Shown here piece after piece: positions 46,486-53,196 of a DNA stretch of 64,000 nucleotides. The stretch spans positions 1 to 64,000 of the IMG/VR virus record IMGVR_UViG_3300023184_000081. One strand, 5' to 3'. Both the position numbers and the translations under genes were made by a program. Position 1 is the stretch's first letter, and the number at the start of each line of letters is the position of its first letter. The notes below the pieces were generated by a model. It saw only the letters and a list, made by a program, of their open reading frames with translations, was not told where the DNA came from and ran no database searches. The stretch comes from a virus.

Positions 46486-47082
46486 ATGAAAATTAATATA
46501 ATTGATTCTGCATCATCAGATGACGAACTTCCAGAACATCTTGGAGGTCATCTAAATAAAACCCATGTAGACGAAGGCGCTCTAGATTTTCTAATTGAAA
46601 ATTTTGATATCGCAACAATGCTAGATATTGGATGCGGTCCTGGCGGAATGCTAGATCTAGCTCACAATCGAGGAATTCATTCTGTTGGTCTAGATGGAGA
46701 CTATACTCTCCCTCGGAGACGGAATGTTCATATTCACGACTTCACGACTGGACCGTTTTTAAATTGGGAAAATAACGATATTGAATTTGATCTCGGCTGG
46801 TCTGTAGAATTTCTAGAACATGTAGAATCTAAATATGTTCCAGTGATCATGCACGCATTTCAACGATGCAAACTTTTGATGGTTACTGCTGCACCTCCTG
46901 GTTATACTGGACATCATCACGTGAACTGCAGAAATCTAGATTATTGGGAAGGTGCATTTAATGCTAGTGGATTCTATTATGATGCAGAAATGACAACAAA
47001 AATCATTGAGGCATCCTCTATGAAAAAACCATTCTTGCAAATGCATGGAATGTTCTATCGGAGATTTCATTATGACAATTAG
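46486..47082 (+). CDS. Class I SAM-dependent methyltransferase
   Basis: A 198-residue methyltransferase with motif I LDIGCGPGGM at about residues 46-55. It has a VEFLEHVESKYVP segment and a HHHVNCRNLDYW stretch near 146. The substrate is unknown. It heads a four-gene block with three glycosyltransferase-like genes, so sugar or surface-polymer methylation is plausible. Confidence 0.7.
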   Translation: MKINIIDSASSDDELPEHLGGHLNKTHVDEGALDFLIENFDIATMLDIGCGPGGMLDLAHNRGIHSVGLDGDYTLPRRRNVHIHDFTTGPFLNWENNDIEFDLGWSVEFLEHVESKYVPVIMHAFQRCKLLMVTAAPPGYTGHHHVNCRNLDYWEGAFNASGFYYDAEMTTKIIEASSMKKPFLQMHGMFYRRFHYDN

Positions 47083-47791
47083 ACTGTTCATCGGAACATC
47101 TGCTAATGGTGAGGATACAGATGCAGAAATGGTATATGAACATTCACTAAGAAAGAACAGTTCTGTTCCCATAGATATCACATGGATGCGTCAAACAAAT
47201 GATAAGTCTAGTGTGTGGGGTGGTTGGGATACTTCTCTATGGCCAACACCATTCAGTGGCTATCGTTGGGCGATACCTGAAGTTTGTAATTTTGAGGGTC
47301 GTGCAATTTACACAGACGTAGACATGATTAATTTCAGAGATCTGAATGAGCTATGGAATATTGATCTTGGAGATAACTGGGTTGGTGCTCGTCTTGGTCC
47401 AAGATTTGGTGGACACGAATTCTGTGTTATGGTTATCGACTGTGCTTCGATGAAAGGAGAGATTGCGTCGATAGAAAGAATGAAAGTTATTCCAGAATCA
47501 CATTCCAGATATATTCGTGCATTCAGCGGAAGTGAAGTTATAAAGAGTATTGATCCAAGATGGAATTGTCTAGACGGAGACGATCTAAAAATAGAAGATA
47601 TGTGGCAACTTCATTATTCTAGAATGAGCACTCAGCCATGGCGTCCCACTTGGTATACTGGAGAAAGTGCTGATCATCCTCGTCCAGAGTTAGTTAAACT
47701 TTGGTTTGATTATCGTGATAAGCTCTTAGAAGAAGGACACAAACCTAATGTAGTCAACAATAGTGTAACATATGATTTTATAGGCAAATGA
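47072..47791 (+). CDS. Putative glycosyltransferase
   Basis: A 239-residue protein starting MTIRLFIGTSANGEDTDAE. FEGRAIYTDVDMINF near residues 82-96 contains a DVD metal triad like GT8-type enzymes. ATG 47072 overlaps the methyltransferase by 11 bases. The donor and acceptor are unknown. It is part of a putative surface-modification block. Confidence 0.65.
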   Translation: MTIRLFIGTSANGEDTDAEMVYEHSLRKNSSVPIDITWMRQTNDKSSVWGGWDTSLWPTPFSGYRWAIPEVCNFEGRAIYTDVDMINFRDLNELWNIDLGDNWVGARLGPRFGGHEFCVMVIDCASMKGEIASIERMKVIPESHSRYIRAFSGSEVIKSIDPRWNCLDGDDLKIEDMWQLHYSRMSTQPWRPTWYTGESADHPRPELVKLWFDYRDKLLEEGHKPNVVNNSVTYDFIGK

Positions 47792-48552
47792 TGATAAACT
47801 GGAATGTAATTGGCGAGCGTCCTAGAAAATTTTGTCTATTCACTTCGTGTGATCCTAAGTATCTAGATGCACATGCTCAAGCATATATTTCTTCTTGTGC
47901 TAAAGCTGAAAATAACGTTCATCTTCATGTAATCAATGCAAGTGTGAATGACTGGACATATATGCAAACTCTTAAGATGGGATATAAACTTATGTTCCCG
48001 TCTGGTGAAATGACTATATCTTCAGAGGATACAGATCTACCAACGATCTCTGATGAACAGAAACGAACATATTATGCGTGTAATAGATTCATTTTTGCTT
48101 CTTCAATAATCACTCAGCCAATGTTGATTACAGATATTGACTGTTTGATAATGAAACATATAAATCCTCTGGAAACAGATCTTGGAATATTTCTTCGAGA
48201 GCCACTTCCAGGCGTTAATGACTGGGAGAAAGAAGGATCTAGAGTAGCTGCAGGCGCAGTCTTTGTTAAAGAAACTGCAAAAGAATTTTTAGAAGGCGCT
48301 GCTCAGATTATTCTAGATAACGAATGGAGATGGTTTTTAGATCAGAACGCATTGAATGTTTCGTATCAACATTTCAAAACTAAATACACATGCACTGCGT
48401 TCGGAACAGATTTTATGGATTGGGAATTTATTGACGGAACTACGATCTGGACTGGAAAGGGAGATAGAAAATACAGCAATCCGAAGTATCTTGGTATGAA
48501 GAAACACTATTATGATGCATTTCCTAAACTCTCTGAGGAATATTGGTTATGA
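47788..48552 (+). CDS. Putative glycosyltransferase (GT-A type)
   Basis: A 254-residue protein. PMLITDIDCLIMKHINP near residue 111 holds a DID metal triad, and a later IWTGKGDRKYSNPKYLG segment fits the acceptor-side end of GT-A enzymes. It overlaps the upstream gene by four bases and the following gene by four. Substrates unknown. Confidence 0.65.
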   Translation: MMINWNVIGERPRKFCLFTSCDPKYLDAHAQAYISSCAKAENNVHLHVINASVNDWTYMQTLKMGYKLMFPSGEMTISSEDTDLPTISDEQKRTYYACNRFIFASSIITQPMLITDIDCLIMKHINPLETDLGIFLREPLPGVNDWEKEGSRVAAGAVFVKETAKEFLEGAAQIILDNEWRWFLDQNALNVSYQHFKTKYTCTAFGTDFMDWEFIDGTTIWTGKGDRKYSNPKYLGMKKHYYDAFPKLSEEYWL

Positions 48553-49547
48553 AAAAAGTTTTACTGCTATCGCCCAGATTAGATTGCATGTTTAAGAAGG
48601 GTCCGGTTCCTTCTGAAATCGGCTCAATCGCACCAATCAGAAAGCACTGGAGGAATTTTATAGAACGAGTCATATCTGAATATTCCAACAGAACTGATGT
48701 TTCATTTAAAGTTCTAGAACTGCCGCTCTGGCAGTTCACTCCAGAACTTGTTAATGAACTCAAGCCTGATATTGTATTCGTTCCGCATAAAGAAGCGCAC
48801 AGCTTTCCTGTAGAAAACTGCGAAGTGTATTACTATATGCAAACTGCATTTCCGTGGATGTTTTCAGTAGATCGAAAAGGATGGGGTGCTGGATCATCTA
48901 AATATCCGTTCGACCGCAGATATATCGGCACTGCTCAAGACGCATATAACGGAGCCGACATATTTAACATGCTTCAAAGTCGCATGAACGACAATCAGAG
49001 TAAATTTGAACAGCCAATTTATCAGAGCAGAGAAAAGATAAATCTACCTGATTACTACGCATTTTTCCCCTGTCAGATTCCACACGACGAAACAATTAAG
49101 TTTCATTCCGACGTCACTGTGGAAGAAGCATTAGAAAGAACTTGTATAGCGACTCAAGAAATAGGAATGAATTTAGTTGTAAAAGGTCATCCTGTCAATC
49201 CTGGTAGTATGCAATCATTAAAAGAAATCGCCAAAAAATATCTGCATGTTACTTGGTATGATGATGTATCCATCCATCAATTGATTCAGACTGCTCGCTG
49301 CACAGTGACAGTAAACTCTGGCGTCGGATTCGAATCTCTTTTGCATAAAGTTCCAGTTGTAACATTCGGAAGATCAGAATATGACTGCGTTACATATAAA
49401 GTGAATAGCAATACAGATCTCGCAAAAACTATAAAATTAGCAAGCCATAGCGTTTTCAACTATGAAGAAGTATGTGATTTCTACAATAACTGGTGGAAAT
49501 ATTGTTACGACTCAAAGAACGGAGATGATTTCACGAAACTGCCATAA
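48549..49547 (+). CDS. Capsule-polysaccharide/Kdo-type transferase-like protein
   Basis: A 332-residue protein with VVKGHPVNPGSMQ near residue 212 and VTVNSGVGFESLLHKVPVVTFGRSEYD near 257. That pattern is typical of the Capsule_synth (KpsC/KpsS-like) GT-B fold, where Ser/Gly-Glu bind the donor. ATG 48549 overlaps the upstream stop. With the two preceding glycosyltransferases it may modify host surface polymers or virion glycans. Confidence 0.65.
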   Translation: MKKVLLLSPRLDCMFKKGPVPSEIGSIAPIRKHWRNFIERVISEYSNRTDVSFKVLELPLWQFTPELVNELKPDIVFVPHKEAHSFPVENCEVYYYMQTAFPWMFSVDRKGWGAGSSKYPFDRRYIGTAQDAYNGADIFNMLQSRMNDNQSKFEQPIYQSREKINLPDYYAFFPCQIPHDETIKFHSDVTVEEALERTCIATQEIGMNLVVKGHPVNPGSMQSLKEIAKKYLHVTWYDDVSIHQLIQTARCTVTVNSGVGFESLLHKVPVVTFGRSEYDCVTYKVNSNTDLAKTIKLASHSVFNYEEVCDFYNNWWKYCYDSKNGDDFTKLP

Positions 49548-49553
49548 TAAATC

Positions 49554-49582
49554 TTGACAATTCATTATAAATAGGGTATAAT
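49554..49582 (+). promoter_or_regulatory. Overlapping sigma70 and late promoters
   Basis: TTGACA at 49554-49559 and TATAAT at 49577-49582 (spacer 17) make a sigma70 promoter. A TATAAATA late box at 49566-49573 sits inside its spacer. The porin gene at 49631 would be transcribed both early and late. Confidence 0.75.
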
Positions 49583-49630
49583 ACGTGTTCGAATGAAGTT
49601 CCTTTTTAAATTAAAAGTATTGGAGAAAAT

Positions 49631-50338
49631 ATGAAGAAAATTATTTTTGCACTATTGTTTGTAAGCGGTATTGCACAAGCGCAAGTAACTGGTAATGTTG
49701 GAGTGACTTCCGACTATCGTTTCCGTGGCATCAGTCAAACACAAAATTCACAAGCTCTACAAGGCGGAATTGATTATTCTCATAAGAGTGGATTCTATGT
49801 TGGCAACTGGAATAGCAGCGTCAGTAGTCTTGTTTATACCGACAGCATCGGTCTAGAAAATGACGTTTATGGTGGCTTTAAGAAAGAACTTTTTAAGGGC
49901 GTAACCGTCGACGTAGGATCGTATAATTATTACTTTTCGCGTTCTGGCAATGCTTTCAACAGCAATAGCAATACACATGAAGTCTATGCTGGAGTTTCGA
50001 CAGGTCCGGTAAGTTTCAAGTATAGTCAGTCTCTTGGTGATTACTTCGCCGTTGCTAATAGCAAAGGAACGAAATATGTTCAAGCTGATCTGAATATGCC
50101 TATCATAGAAAAACTAACGGGTAATGTTCATTTTGGTCACGCTTTTATTGCAAATCATAAAGATAGCAATTTTACTGATATCAAACTTGGCGCAACTTAC
50201 AATATTGTTGGTGTAGATGTAGGCGCGCACTATTACACAAATCGTGGAATGACAGCTGCCACAAAATTAGCTGATACAGTTTCTGGAGAAAAACTCTACA
50301 AAAACGCATTTGTCTTTTCTGTAGCGAAATCATTCTAA
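49631..50338 (+). CDS. TorF-family putative outer-membrane porin
   Basis: A 235-residue protein with a signal peptide (MKKIIFALLFVSGIAQAQ, about 1-18). GNVGVTSDYRFRGISQTQN, the hallmark N-terminus of the bacterial TorF/Gcw_chp porin family, follows. The rest is a series of amphipathic beta strands ending with Phe, as outer-membrane barrels do. Such genes are bacterial; here it is embedded in phage genes with its own promoters and terminator. It may alter nutrient uptake or receptor display in infected cells. Confidence 0.85.
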   Translation: MKKIIFALLFVSGIAQAQVTGNVGVTSDYRFRGISQTQNSQALQGGIDYSHKSGFYVGNWNSSVSSLVYTDSIGLENDVYGGFKKELFKGVTVDVGSYNYYFSRSGNAFNSNSNTHEVYAGVSTGPVSFKYSQSLGDYFAVANSKGTKYVQADLNMPIIEKLTGNVHFGHAFIANHKDSNFTDIKLGATYNIVGVDVGAHYYTNRGMTAATKLADTVSGEKLYKNAFVFSVAKSF

Positions 50339-50356
50339 TTTATAATGACTTATTTG

Positions 50357-50390
50357 AAAACAAGGGATCTGTTGCTAACCCCTTGTTTTC
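50357..50390 (+). terminator. Rho-independent terminator
   Basis: AAAACAAGGG and CCCTTGTTTT pair around a 13-base loop (50357-50389), followed by a T-rich end. It isolates the porin transcript from the tRNA array. Confidence 0.85.
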
Positions 50391-50420
50391 ATTGATGATT
50401 TTAAATGACCAAAATACGCC

Positions 50421-50449
50421 TTGACATTTAATCTGATATGACTTATAAT
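50421..50449 (+). promoter_or_regulatory. sigma70-type promoter of the tRNA array
   Basis: TTGACA at 50421-50426 and TATAAT at 50444-50449, spacer 17. The first tRNA begins 59 bases later. I see no other clear promoter in the 2.7-kb array. Confidence 0.85.
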
Positions 50450-50508
50450 AGTTGTATATTAAATGGTAGCACAAGCAGTAACTGCTCTTTAAAAATTTGG
50501 AAAATAGT

Positions 50509-50583
50509 GTCCTGTTTGACTTCTGGTGAGGTCACCACCCTTTCACGGTGGCAAGAGGGGTTCGAATCCCCTACAGGACGCCA
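50509..50583 (+). tRNA. tRNA-Glu (anticodon TTC)
   Basis: Acceptor GTCCTGT/ACAGGAC, anticodon arm CCACC-CTTTCAC-GGTGG, T loop TTCGAAT, encoded CCA. Its CCA is also the outer end of a long stem with 50701-50703. Confidence 0.9.
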
Positions 50584-50703
50584 TATTGAAGCGCATTATT
50601 GTCTATTTCGGCGTTCCTCCGATGGGTCAGAGTGTTTATATAGACACCCTGATAAGGAAAACAGTATCCATTGACAAGATATTGGTAGTGCGTTTCAATA
50701 TGG
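50581..50703 (+). ncRNA. Long-stem RNA element A
   Basis: Bases 50581-50595 (CCATATTGAAGCGCA) pair with 50689-50703, 15 pairs including one G-U and no mismatch. Inside, 50626-50635 pair with 50644-50653 as a hairpin. No T arm or anticodon arm is visible. The element fills the gap between tRNA-Glu and element B. It is not a tRNA that I can fold. Confidence 0.55.
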
Positions 50704-50836
50704 TAACATGCAACAGCATGAGAGTAACGTGATACTGGCCAGTAAGCGTTCGGACATGCAATATCTCAAAGCGGAAAGTCATGAGTCCGTAGAGAAAAAG
50801 ATTTCGGTTCGATTCCGAATTGCGTGTGACCATATT
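50697..50836 (+). ncRNA. Long-stem RNA element B with a T-arm
   Basis: Bases 50697-50713 pair with 50820-50836, 16 pairs and one A-G mismatch. At 50803-50819 there is a perfect tRNA T arm (TTCGG-TTCGATT-CCGAA), immediately followed by an acceptor-like TTGCGTG that pairs with CATGCAA at 50707-50713. The intervening 89 bases do not fold into ordinary D and anticodon arms. It could be a tRNA with an insertion or a tRNA-like stable RNA. Confidence 0.55.
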
Positions 50837-50838
50837 AC

Positions 50839-50912
50839 GCGGGATTAGTTAAATGGTATAATTAGAGTTTTCCAAACTCCAGTCATCAGTTCGATTCTGA
50901 TATTCCGCTCCA
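50839..50912 (+). tRNA. tRNA-Gly (anticodon TCC)
   Basis: Acceptor GCGGGAT/ATTCCGC, anticodon loop TTTCCAA, T loop TTCGATT, encoded CCA. One mismatch in the anticodon stem. Confidence 0.82.
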
Positions 50913-50920
50913 TTTGTTGT

Positions 50921-50994
50921 TGGGGATTAGTTAAATGGTATAACCGCGGATTTTGATTCCGCTATCACAAGTTCGATTCTTGTATCCCCTGCCA
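50921..50994 (+). tRNA. tRNA-Gln (anticodon TTG)
   Basis: Acceptor TGGGGAT with a weak first pair, as is usual for tRNA-Gln. Anticodon arm GCGGA-TTTTGAT-TCCGC, T loop TTCGATT, encoded CCA. Confidence 0.88.
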
Positions 50995-51024
50995 GAAAAT
51001 TTTATTTAACAGAAAGGAAATTGT

Positions 51025-51057
51025 ATGAAGCGAAAATCCAAAACACGCAAGACATAG
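51025..51057 (+). CDS. Possible ten-residue basic peptide inside the tRNA array
   Basis: MKRKSKTRKT with AGAAAGGA eight bases upstream, in the gap between tRNA-Gln and tRNA-Lys. The stop overlaps the first base of tRNA-Lys. It may be chance, but the ribosome site is good. Confidence 0.25.
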   Translation: MKRKSKTRKT

Positions 51058-51133
51058 GGAGTGTGGTGTAAAGGCTTGCACAACGGACTTTTAATCCGCT
51101 AAGAGTTAGGTTCGATTCCTACCACTCCCACCA
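51057..51133 (+). tRNA. tRNA-Lys (anticodon TTT)
   Basis: Acceptor GGGAGTG/CACTCCC, anticodon loop CTTTTAA, T loop TTCGATT, encoded CCA. Confidence 0.9.
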
Positions 51134-51206
51134 TATGAAAACACATTCTTTAAGGTCTTGGTCGTTACCAGCCTGGCAAAAACGACGACAGAGTGTGTTT
51201 CCATAT
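51133..51206 (+). ncRNA. Long-stem RNA element C
   Basis: ATATG-A-AAACACATTCT at 51133-51149 pairs with AGAGTGTGTTT-C-CATAT at 51190-51206, 16 pairs and one mismatch. Inside, GTCGTT (51168-51173) pairs with AACGAC (51181-51186), and the CCAG/CTGG within it can pair too. No T arm. It is the smallest of the four long-stem elements and sits between tRNA-Lys and tRNA-Ser. Confidence 0.55.
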
Positions 51207-51216
51207 AGTAGAAAAA

Positions 51217-51308
51217 GGAGAGTAATGCAGCGGGGTTGGTCCTGCGACCAGCCTTGAAAACTGGGTTCTGAGAAATCGGATGGGGTTCGACTCCTCTGCT
51301 CTCCGCCA
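51217..51308 (+). tRNA. tRNA-Ser (anticodon TGA)
   Basis: Acceptor GGAGAGT/GCTCTCC, anticodon loop CTTGAAA, long variable arm, T loop TTCGACT, encoded CCA. Confidence 0.87.
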
Positions 51309-51314
51309 ATTTTT

Positions 51315-51390
51315 GACTCGTTAGCTCAATCGGAAGAGCACATGCCTGTCACGCATGAGGTAAGGGGATCGAAACCCCTACGGGTCGCCA
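51315..51390 (+). tRNA. tRNA-Asp (anticodon GTC)
   Basis: Acceptor GACTCGT/ACGGGTC, anticodon arm CATGC-CTGTCAC-GCATG, encoded CCA. The T loop is ATCGAAA instead of the usual TTCGAAA. Confidence 0.9.
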
Positions 51391-51398
51391 AGAATTAC

Positions 51399-51492
51399 GG
51401 AGATTTGGCTGAGCATGGTTTAAGGCAGCGGATTGCTAATCCGTCGATCGAGGAAACTTGATCCATTGGTTCGAATCCAATAATCTCCGCCA
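51399..51492 (+). tRNA. tRNA-Ser (anticodon GCT)
   Basis: Acceptor GGAGATT/AATCTCC, anticodon loop TTGCTAA, long variable arm, T loop TTCGAAT, encoded CCA. Confidence 0.9.
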
Positions 51493-51506
51493 GAATTAAA
51501 AGTTTT

Positions 51507-51602
51507 GCTCCCCAGCACTCGGCGTGCGGCATGCCCTTATAAAGCGTGGAGACTGGTCAGATAGGCTGGAACGGGAAGGTTCAAAACCTTCGGGGAGTAC
51601 CA
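51507..51602 (+). tRNA. Atypical tRNA with long variable region (anticodon uncertain, best TAT)
   Basis: Acceptor GCTCCCC/GGGGAGT, T arm GAAGG-TTCAAAA-CCTTC and CCA are clear. The 61 bases between do not give a clean D and anticodon arm. The most regular reading is ATGCC-CTTATAA-AGCGT with anticodon TAT (Ile, AUA codon). It has a mismatch next to the loop and an extended variable region unusual for tRNA-Ile. Confidence 0.55.
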
Positions 51603-51607
51603 AATTT

Positions 51608-51685
51608 GGTGAGGTGGCAGAGTGGTCAAATGCAAGAGCCTGCAAAACTCTAAAATCGTCGGTTCGAATCCGACCCTCACTTCCA
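51608..51685 (+). tRNA. tRNA-Cys (anticodon GCA)
   Basis: Acceptor GGTGAGG/CCTCACT, anticodon loop CTGCAAA, T arm GTCGG-TTCGAAT-CCGAC, encoded CCA. Confidence 0.88.
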
Positions 51686-51690
51686 AACTT

Positions 51691-51765
51691 GCCCTGTTAG
51701 TTCTAGTGGTAAAACGTCGGTTTTGTAATCCGAATTCGGGTGTTCGATTCACCCACGGGGCACCA
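51691..51765 (+). tRNA. tRNA-Thr (anticodon TGT)
   Basis: Acceptor GCCCTGT/ACGGGGC, anticodon loop TTTGTAA, T loop TTCGATT, encoded CCA. Confidence 0.9.
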
Positions 51766-51772
51766 AAGAAAT

Positions 51773-51865
51773 GGAAGTATTGATGCTATGGCGTGTGCAT
51801 CCCGAGACTGTAAATCTCGTCCCTCAGGGTAAACATTACTGGTTCGACTCCAGTTACTTCCACCA
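51773..51865 (+). tRNA. tRNA-Tyr (anticodon GTA)
   Basis: Acceptor GGAAGTA/TACTTCC, anticodon arm CGAGA-CTGTAAA-TCTCG, long variable arm, encoded CCA. Confidence 0.92.
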
Positions 51866-51872
51866 GATTTAT

Positions 51873-51947
51873 TCCTCGATAGCTCAGCGGTAGAGCAGTT
51901 GACTGTTAATCAATTGGTCCGTGGTTCGATCCCACGTCGAGGAGCCA
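51873..51947 (+). tRNA. tRNA-Asn (anticodon GTT)
   Basis: Acceptor TCCTCGA/TCGAGGA, anticodon loop CTGTTAA, T loop TTCGATC, encoded CCA. Confidence 0.92.
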
Positions 51948-51956
51948 GTATCAAAA

Positions 51957-52032
51957 CGGTGTGTAGCTCAGCTGGTAGAGTGCGTGGTTTGGGACCATGA
52001 GGTCGGGAGTTCGAAACTCTCCACACCGACCA
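51957..52032 (+). tRNA. tRNA-Pro (anticodon TGG)
   Basis: Acceptor CGGTGTG/CACACCG, anticodon arm CGTGG-TTTGGGA-CCATG, encoded CCA. Confidence 0.92.
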
Positions 52033-52037
52033 GAATT

Positions 52038-52124
52038 GCAAGTGTGATGGAACAGGTATACATAAGAGACTTAAAATCTCTCGCTCGCAAGGGCATGCGG
52101 GTTCGATTCCCGCCACTTGCACCA
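52038..52124 (+). tRNA. tRNA-Leu (anticodon TAA)
   Basis: Acceptor GCAAGTG/CACTTGC, anticodon arm AGAGA-CTTAAAA-TCTCT, long variable arm, encoded CCA. Confidence 0.92.
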
Positions 52125-52140
52125 TAGTGATTCAGTATTT

Positions 52141-52216
52141 GGGGGTGTAGCTCAGTTGGGAGAGCGTATGCTTTGCAAGCATAATGTCGTCGGTTCGATC
52201 CCGTCCATCTCCACCA
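52141..52216 (+). tRNA. tRNA-Ala (anticodon TGC)
   Basis: Acceptor GGGGGTG/CATCTCC with two G-U pairs, anticodon arm TATGC-TTTGCAA-GCATA, encoded CCA. Confidence 0.92.
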
Positions 52217-52224
52217 GATTTAAT

Positions 52225-52298
52225 GCCTCGGTAGTTTAACGGTAAAACGCCATCCTTACACGGTGGATTCGGGAGTTCAACTCTCCAACGAGGTACCA
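52225..52298 (+). tRNA. tRNA-Val (anticodon TAC)
   Basis: Acceptor GCCTCGG/ACGAGGT with one mismatch at the inner end, anticodon arm CCATC-CTTACAC-GGTGG, encoded CCA. Confidence 0.87.
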
Positions 52299-52307
52299 AA
52301 AAGTTTT

Positions 52308-52384
52308 GCCCCGGTGACGGAATTGGCATACGTGTCGGTCTTAGAAGCCGAATTTTAGGAGTTCGAGTCTCCTCTGGGGCACCA
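52308..52384 (+). tRNA. tRNA-Leu (anticodon TAG)
   Basis: Acceptor GCCCCGG/CTGGGGC, anticodon loop CTTAGAA, short variable region for Leu, encoded CCA. Its CCA begins the stem of element D. Confidence 0.85.
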
Positions 52385-52548
52385 TAAGTAACTGCATTGG
52401 TAAGGAAAGACAATGTTCATAGACTCTCGAGGGAATATGTTCATACCTCCGCTGCAGCGGAGAAAAGGAGGATGGGCAAGCGATGATTTGGGGATTTTAG
52501 ACATCTCCTCTAGCTGGATACCCCACCTGCCAGTGCAGTTTCTTATGG
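52382..52548 (+). ncRNA. Long-stem RNA element D
   Basis: Bases 52382-52400 pair with 52530-52548 over 19 positions, 18 pairs and one T-T mismatch. Inside are a perfect hairpin CTCCGC-TGCA-GCGGAG (52447-52462) and a possible TGGGG/CCCCA helix. No T arm or anticodon arm is visible. The stem starts in the CCA of tRNA-Leu and its far strand ends in the first two bases of tRNA-Met. Confidence 0.6.
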
Positions 52549-52622
52549 TAATGTAGCATAGTGACTAATGCAGTTCCTTCATACGGAAAAGATCGTTGGT
52601 TTGAGTCCAACCATTACTACCA
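52547..52622 (+). tRNA. tRNA-Met (anticodon CAT)
   Basis: Acceptor GGTAATG/CATTACT, anticodon loop TTCATAC, T arm GTTGG-TTTGAGT-CCAAC, encoded CCA. Initiator, elongator or lysidine-type Ile use cannot be told from sequence. Confidence 0.85.
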
Positions 52623-52629
52623 AATTTTT

Positions 52630-52706
52630 GCGCCCATAGCTCAGTGGATTAGAGCCAACGGTTTCTACCCGTTAGGTCGGCAGTTCGAATCTGTCTGGGC
52701 GCACCA
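52630..52706 (+). tRNA. tRNA-Arg (anticodon TCT)
   Basis: Acceptor GCGCCCA/TGGGCGC, anticodon arm AACGG-TTTCTAC-CCGTT, encoded CCA. Confidence 0.93.
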
Positions 52707-52712
52707 GTATTT

Positions 52713-52788
52713 ACCATCTTAGCTCAGCGGTAGTAGCAGTGTGTTGATAACGCATTGGTCAGTGGTTCGATCCCACTAGATGGTACCA
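52713..52788 (+). tRNA. tRNA-Ile (anticodon GAT)
   Basis: Acceptor ACCATCT/AGATGGT, anticodon loop TTGATAA, T loop TTCGATC, encoded CCA. Confidence 0.9.
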
Positions 52789-52793
52789 AATTT

Positions 52794-52867
52794 CTCGGTG
52801 TAGTATAATGGCATTACGGCAGCCTCCAAATCTGCTTATGGGAGTTCGATTCTCTCCGCCGGGGCCA
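52794..52867 (+). tRNA. tRNA-Trp (anticodon CCA)
   Basis: Acceptor CTCGGTG/CGCCGGG with two G-U pairs, anticodon loop CTCCAAA, T loop TTCGATT, encoded CCA. Confidence 0.82.
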
Positions 52868-52869
52868 AT

Positions 52870-52945
52870 ATCTCTATAACTCAGCGGACAGAGTTCTTCG
52901 GTCCTAACGAAGCGGTCGCAAGTTCGAATCTTGCTAGGGATGCCA
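52870..52945 (+). tRNA. tRNA-Arg (anticodon CCT)
   Basis: Acceptor ATCTCTA/TAGGGAT, anticodon arm CTTCG-GTCCTAA-CGAAG, encoded CCA. Confidence 0.88.
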
Positions 52946-52950
52946 GTTTT

Positions 52951-53028
52951 AGATGGAGAGCTAGTCTGGTGATTCAGCGCGTGCCTGAAGAGCATGAGAA
53001 CTCAGTTCGATTCTGAGTCCATCTACCA
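52951..53028 (+). tRNA. tRNA-Phe (anticodon GAA)
   Basis: Acceptor AGATGGA/TCCATCT, anticodon arm CGTGC-CTGAAGA-GCATG, encoded CCA. Confidence 0.9.
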
Positions 53029-53037
53029 AAGAACAAT

Positions 53038-53111
53038 GGTGTTGTTAATGTAATGGTTGCATAACTGTCTGTGAAACAGTTAGAGAGGGTTCGATTCCCC
53101 ACTTCACCCCA
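53038..53111 (+). tRNA. tRNA-His (anticodon GTG)
   Basis: Anticodon arm ACTGT-CTGTGAA-ACAGT. The extra G at -1 faces C73, as tRNA-His requires. Acceptor GTGTTGT/ACTTCAC has two mismatches, so it may be slightly decayed. CCA is encoded. Confidence 0.8.
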
Positions 53112-53119
53112 ATAAATAT

Positions 53120-53196
53120 CGGTCCTTAACTCAATTGGATAGAGTGCCAGTCTTCGAAACTGGAGGTTGGGAGTTCGAGTCTCTCAGGATCGGCCA
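53120..53196 (+). tRNA. tRNA-Arg (anticodon TCG)
   Basis: Acceptor CGGTCCT/AGGATCG, anticodon arm CCAGT-CTTCGAA-ACTGG, encoded CCA. Last tRNA of the array. Confidence 0.92.

Follow-up and report, generated by a model that had tools for sequence, protein, structure and literature searches.

The window analysed here covers positions 1-64,000 of an incomplete 80,241-base IMG/VR record from a large T4-like phage, whose hosts are probably freshwater betaproteobacteria. It encodes a T4-type DNA polymerase, sliding clamp, clamp loader, UvsX, helicase, CobS/CobT-like proteins and an endolysin. In a comparison of UvsX the closest isolates are Methylophilales phage Melnitz (62%) and Pelagibacter phage HTVC008M (58%). 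The T4-type genes around it confirm the original prediction that a gene for a bacterial-family outer-membrane porin is embedded here among phage genes. Its features are as follows.

49554-49582, plus strand: sigma70-type early promoter, TTGACA-17-TATAAT (12/12 match)
49566-49573, plus strand: T4-type late promoter box TATAAATA, wholly within the 17-base sigma70 spacer
49622-49625, plus strand: Shine-Dalgarno GGAG, read from the sequence
49631-50338, plus strand: TorF/Gcw_chp-family outer-membrane porin of 235 amino acids with a predicted 12-strand barrel (profile matches, structure model)
49631-49681, plus strand: signal peptide, residues 1-17, predicted cut between AQA and Q (read by eye)
50350-50398, plus strand: terminator hairpin of the porin unit (folding energy)
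50421-50449, plus strand: next perfect sigma70 promoter, before a tRNA array, which bounds the porin unit (promoter scan)

The unit had been delimited exactly, since TTGACA begins at position 49554 and the stop codon ends at 50338. Upstream, between nrdB and the porin (46486-49547), lie genes for a methyltransferase, a glycosyltransferase-like protein, an unknown protein and a capsule-synthesis-like protein, a block that could modify the host surface or the phage DNA. Neither the porin nor any of the four genes upstream of it has a family in PHROGs. Directly 3' of the porin unit, behind the perfect sigma70 promoter, an array of 21-23 tRNA genes occupies positions 50508-53196.

The identity of the protein as a TorF-type outer-membrane barrel with a signal peptide, as originally predicted, is upheld by profile searches, by the 12 strands of a structure model and by inspection of the N-terminus. 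The porin matches PF09694 (Gcw_chp) over residues 17-235 (E 1.4e-45, 156 bits against a cut-off of 24), the sole Pfam family matched, and TIGR02001 (E 3.9e-41, 141 bits against a cut-off of 47), and the family carries the NCBIfam name 'putative porin'. The signal peptide, by inspection, reads MKK-IIFALLFVSGI-AQA before the cut, and relatives likewise have a lysine start and a hydrophobic core; the C-terminal residue, also by inspection, is Phe. The AlphaFold2 model (pLDDT 82.9) has short periplasmic turns and long outer loops, and its fold comes closest to monomeric porins of the KdgM/NanC type (Z 18-19). When lumen- and lipid-facing residues are assigned by strand parity rather than from model coordinates, conservation is 0.74 for lumen-facing versus 0.52 for lipid-facing residues in the phages and 0.67 versus 0.48 in bacteria. 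Outer loops L2, L3, L5 and L6 are variable; L1 (SDYRFRGISQ) is conserved, as is strand 3 (SGFYVGNWNSS). In the window porin, 9 acidic and 3 basic residues lie on the lumen strands.

The late box at 49566-49573 does lie inside the 17-base spacer of a fully matching sigma70 promoter, and the gene does have a terminator of its own, both as had been claimed. The sigma70 promoter begins with TTGACAATT, as do several other perfect promoters in the genome. By the -13 to -6 rule (PMC1524935), late transcription would start near 49579. With regard to the late-promoter machinery, the gp45 clamp and clamp loader are present in the genome, and a search for gp33, which had no positive control, gave no match. 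The terminator, at about 50355-50391, has a 12-bp stem and a 13-base loop with a minimum free energy of -17 kcal/mol (z -4.45 relative to shuffled sequences). Relatives have terminators of a more textbook form, and a simple terminator scan overlooked the one in the window because that scan was limited to loops of 3-8 bases. Given its own promoters and hairpin, followed by a second perfect sigma70 promoter, the porin seems to be a separate transcription unit.

At the density of the window, ATAAATA would fall inside one given promoter interior by chance in about 0.4% of cases. In 324 kb of DNA from the window phage and related phages, 22 out of 108 near-perfect sense-strand sigma70 sites hold ATAAATA inside, compared with 1 out of 648 control windows of equal length placed 60-120 bases away. 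The 22 nested promoters represent 10 sequence clusters. Thus, the overlap of sigma70 and late promoters is a recurring device in these phages. Inside the window, only the porin promoter has a nested late box. The nested test was restricted to near-perfect sites, and a low-threshold sigma70 scan returned 21 sites against 20 in shuffles.

The two elements are not kept to the same degree at porin loci. In 18 out of 27 phage loci a NNTAAATA box is found 46-65 bases upstream of the start codon of the porin (variants TATAAATA, AATAAATA, GCTAAATA and ACTAAATA), against a background in which TAAATA occurs in ~10% of random 160-base stretches. Strong sigma70 sites at most 160 bases upstream are seen in 5 out of 27 (the window, L005, L008, L010 and L014). 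We conclude from these counts that late control has been conserved more than early control. In 26 out of 27 loci a terminator lies no more than 90 bases past the porin stop, versus 4% of random stretches. The boxes resemble T4 late promoters and CTAAATA, the reported late promoter of the T4-like phage Aeh1 (PMC1524935), in that TATAAATA occurs here and ACTAAATA or GCTAAATA at the same place in relatives; the difference is that in the present phages the late box often lies within a sigma70 spacer. Permuted tmRNA genes of the betaproteobacterial type are located near the porin in many relatives (L001 3966-4378, L002 4493-4934, L003 5779-6181, L005 2250-2671, L014 4457-4882, L019 4544-4950 and others), several of them behind overlapping sigma70/late promoters.

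A scan of viral contigs yielded 32 loci, 29 of which encode proteins with 39-76% identity to the porin, and ~28 related viral contigs carry the porin clade. In the phylogeny against host porins that had been proposed as a check, 24 viral rows separate from 40 Burkholderiales rows as one viral clade with 100/100 support, in agreement with a long-standing viral gene. The viral rows include L034, which is labelled Bacteroidales and was treated as a misbinned phage because it is 92% identical to L014 over 1.1 kb and groups with it. The first branch among the phages is L027. Wherever it is measurable, dN/dS of the viral porins is 0.09-0.19. The porin is therefore a long-term resident of one phage lineage under purifying selection, and the wide differences in gene neighbours between contigs indicate that it was retained through much rearrangement.

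Other phages carry more distant members of the family. Loci L030-L032 are PF09694 members too divergent for placement in the tree. Acinetobacter phage AB1I1M-1 (OQ627712.1), a sequenced 168-kb phage with a T4-type gp56 that looks genuine, has a gene annotated as a TorF family putative porin (PF09694, E 7e-16). In contrast to the present clade, it has only ~29-31% identity and falls outside, and no comparable sigma70/late promoter was seen just upstream. This gene was probably acquired separately, and together with L030-L032 it suggests that phages acquired the TorF family more than once, although these placements involve long branches and are uncertain. AB1I1M-1 is a possible laboratory system. 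Most other Acinetobacter matches labelled as phage call for caution; contig CAKLQF020000008 of MD-2021a was rejected as phage evidence based on its bacterial surroundings (catechol genes).

The closest bacterial relatives, with 35-45% identity, are from Burkholderiales, as sampled in one scan whose patterns favour relatives bearing FYVGNWN. Within this sample, the P-II gene glnK is directly downstream of TorF in 52 out of 80 loci, and amtB follows in 50. A sigma54-type promoter is present within 400 bases upstream of 46 out of 51 glnK-linked bacterial loci, 5 out of 24 unlinked loci and 12% of random stretches. Upstream of phage TorF there is none in 25 loci, and none precedes the window gene. 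In Herbaspirillum seropedicae, expression of the nlmA-glnK-amtB operon depends on NtrC and is induced when nitrogen is limiting, and membranes were found to contain NlmA (PMC3023670). Based on gene order and description, NlmA can be likened to the TorF proteins, given that the same order is found in those 52 nearest bacterial loci and that NlmA is a membrane protein of a nitrogen-limitation operon. The viral copy differs in standing alone, without a sigma54 site and behind phage-type promoters.

Searches for P-II and Amt found neither in the incomplete 80-kb record of the window, and glnK and amtB are absent from 11 out of 12 other contigs checked, most of which are fragments. The exception is G006, the 191,865-base contig of L027 (gp23 capsid gene, E 1e-100), in which genes for P-II, an ammonium transporter and a solute-binding protein of the PBP family occur together. 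Its P-II is up to 76% identical, over the full length, to those of the sampled Burkholderiales operons, but its transporter is only ~34% identical to theirs, so the evidence falls short of a simple transfer of the whole operon. TorF would be ~5 kb from glnK-amtB only if the contig is circular and, given the divergent transporter, the evidence also falls short of co-acquisition of the three genes. The region of L115 2405-9165 (G006 180000-191865) is a compact nutrient-uptake cassette with groEL- and groES-like genes, a PBP/PstS-like protein, glnK and amtB.

We propose, with evenly balanced confidence, that the porin is a viral outer-membrane diffusion channel of the TorF/NlmA kind, derived from a host nitrogen-starvation operon and moved to phage timing. 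Three functions had originally been suggested, namely a change in uptake, a receptor decoy and an effect on superinfection. The comparisons favour uptake, because the relatives are in glnK-amtB operons, the earliest-branching phage has glnK-amtB, and conservation is higher in the lumen than on the lipid-facing side or in most outer loops. Derivation of the gene from a host is supported by the scan of bacterial relatives and by the tree. An ancestor of these T4-like phages would have taken the porin gene from a betaproteobacterial nitrogen-uptake operon. Host polymerase could then read it at once from the sigma70 promoter, and the overlapping late box would hand it to the phage late polymerase once replication begins. 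Since the two promoters physically overlap, one form of polymerase would occupy the site at a time. Expression throughout the infection, as originally claimed, is what the two promoters together would suggest. The viral porin would be exported and folded by host Sec/BAM, and the channel, either general or cation-preferring, would raise outer-membrane permeability to small nitrogen compounds outside NtrC control. The likeliest solutes would be ammonium or other small cations. It counts against uptake that control has been conserved for the late phase, in which the benefit of metabolic support is less evident.

A broader version of the proposal is more tentative. A widespread aquatic T4-like lineage may have adopted an ammonium-operon channel, swapped its starvation promoter for a sigma70/late overlap and so kept nitrogen entering, with the overlap serving as a general hand-over device that also acts on tmRNA genes. 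Overlapping promoters of this kind would be a simple way to keep a gene expressed through the switch from early to late transcription.

An alternative that we judge possible, though rather unlikely, is that the barrel remodels the cell surface. It might block, mask or replace the phage receptor, which would exclude superinfection or keep progeny from adsorbing to debris. The Lc porin of phage PA-2 is a precedent for a role of this kind. The product would be a surface protein of a lytic phage, its loops L2, L3, L5 and L6 vary as surface-exposed parts should, the upstream block holds methyltransferase, glycosyltransferase-like and capsule-synthesis-like genes, and protection of progeny would fit late timing. 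However, variable loops are usual in any porin, and here it is the lumen residues that are conserved above the loops. In bacteria, the closest relatives belong to nitrogen operons. In addition, the exclusion genes of T4 are early, whereas at the present loci the late box is the more conserved element.

It is unlikely that the barrel acts in lysis, by weakening the outer membrane late in infection, or that it rides in the particle as a virion part. The conserved late-type promoter box would suit either role, and related T4-like phages carry a CsgG/CsgF pore with a suggested role in lysis (PMC9004378). Yet the cleavable signal peptide and BAM-type C-terminal Phe suggest insertion into the membrane, and the porin lies outside the structural genes and has a lumen strongly conserved in the bacterial manner. 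The phage's own genome already has spanin-like and endolysin genes.

We consider it quite unlikely that the protein is an oligosaccharide porin of the KdgM/NanC kind that takes up acidic sugars. This reading draws on the fold of the predicted model, a 12-strand monomeric barrel whose closest PDB folds are KdgM (Z 19.0, rmsd 1.9 over 161 residues), VhGalP (Z 18.8) and NanC (Z 18.6), with further barrels at Z ~16 and below. Nevertheless, a PDB sequence search with the porin found no related chain, so no solved porin is matched by sequence. KdgM-type pores are basic, whereas the lumen estimated here is acidic, and the nearest bacterial operons serve ammonium rather than sugars. Finally, the gene might be a stray host gene picked up recently, or an artefact of assembly, with no function in the phage. 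Outside these phages the family is bacterial, and PHROGs has no entry for it, but this reading is highly improbable and already contradicted by the supported viral clade in ~28 contigs, a dN/dS of ~0.1 and the conserved promoter box and terminator.

Outer-membrane pores encoded by phages are already known. Phages of marine oxygen-minimum zones carry a viral glnK-amtB-ompL cassette (PMC8115048), which resembles the present case in that a phage-encoded porin is tied to nitrogen uptake. OmpL, however, is a Flavobacteriales porin beside a viral amtB, whereas the protein described here is a Burkholderiales-type TorF, mostly without glnK-amtB and behind overlapping early and late promoters. In the literature library searched, no paper matched TorF or Gcw_chp in combination with phage, or the term phage-encoded porin, though one phage record annotates TorF. 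What appears to be new, as judged from gene content and promoter motifs, is a viral uptake channel from another porin family, in which the nitrogen-responsive promoter of the host would have been replaced by overlapping phage-type promoters.

So far, the known ways in which viruses aid nutrient uptake mostly involve inner-membrane and periplasmic parts, and a channel from a nitrogen operon would extend it to the outer membrane. If the uptake reading holds, the infected cell may be opened to nutrients whatever the nitrogen control of the host, nitrogen would seem to limit the growth of phages in lakes, and the phage gene would offer a lead on the substrate of the TorF/NlmA family.

The CsgG/CsgF pore of pelagimyophages and Melnitz (PMC7029224, PMC9004378) is likewise a pore of the outer membrane, carried by related T4-like phages that infect aquatic proteobacteria, but the protein is unrelated to TorF and the window record lacks CsgG. 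Mutual exclusion of TorF and CsgG was tested and rejected, as both occur in 3 out of 13 contigs. In these three (G002, G005 and G011, the contigs of L005, L023 and L024), CsgG and TorF are encoded in one contig, giving two outer-membrane pores per phage.
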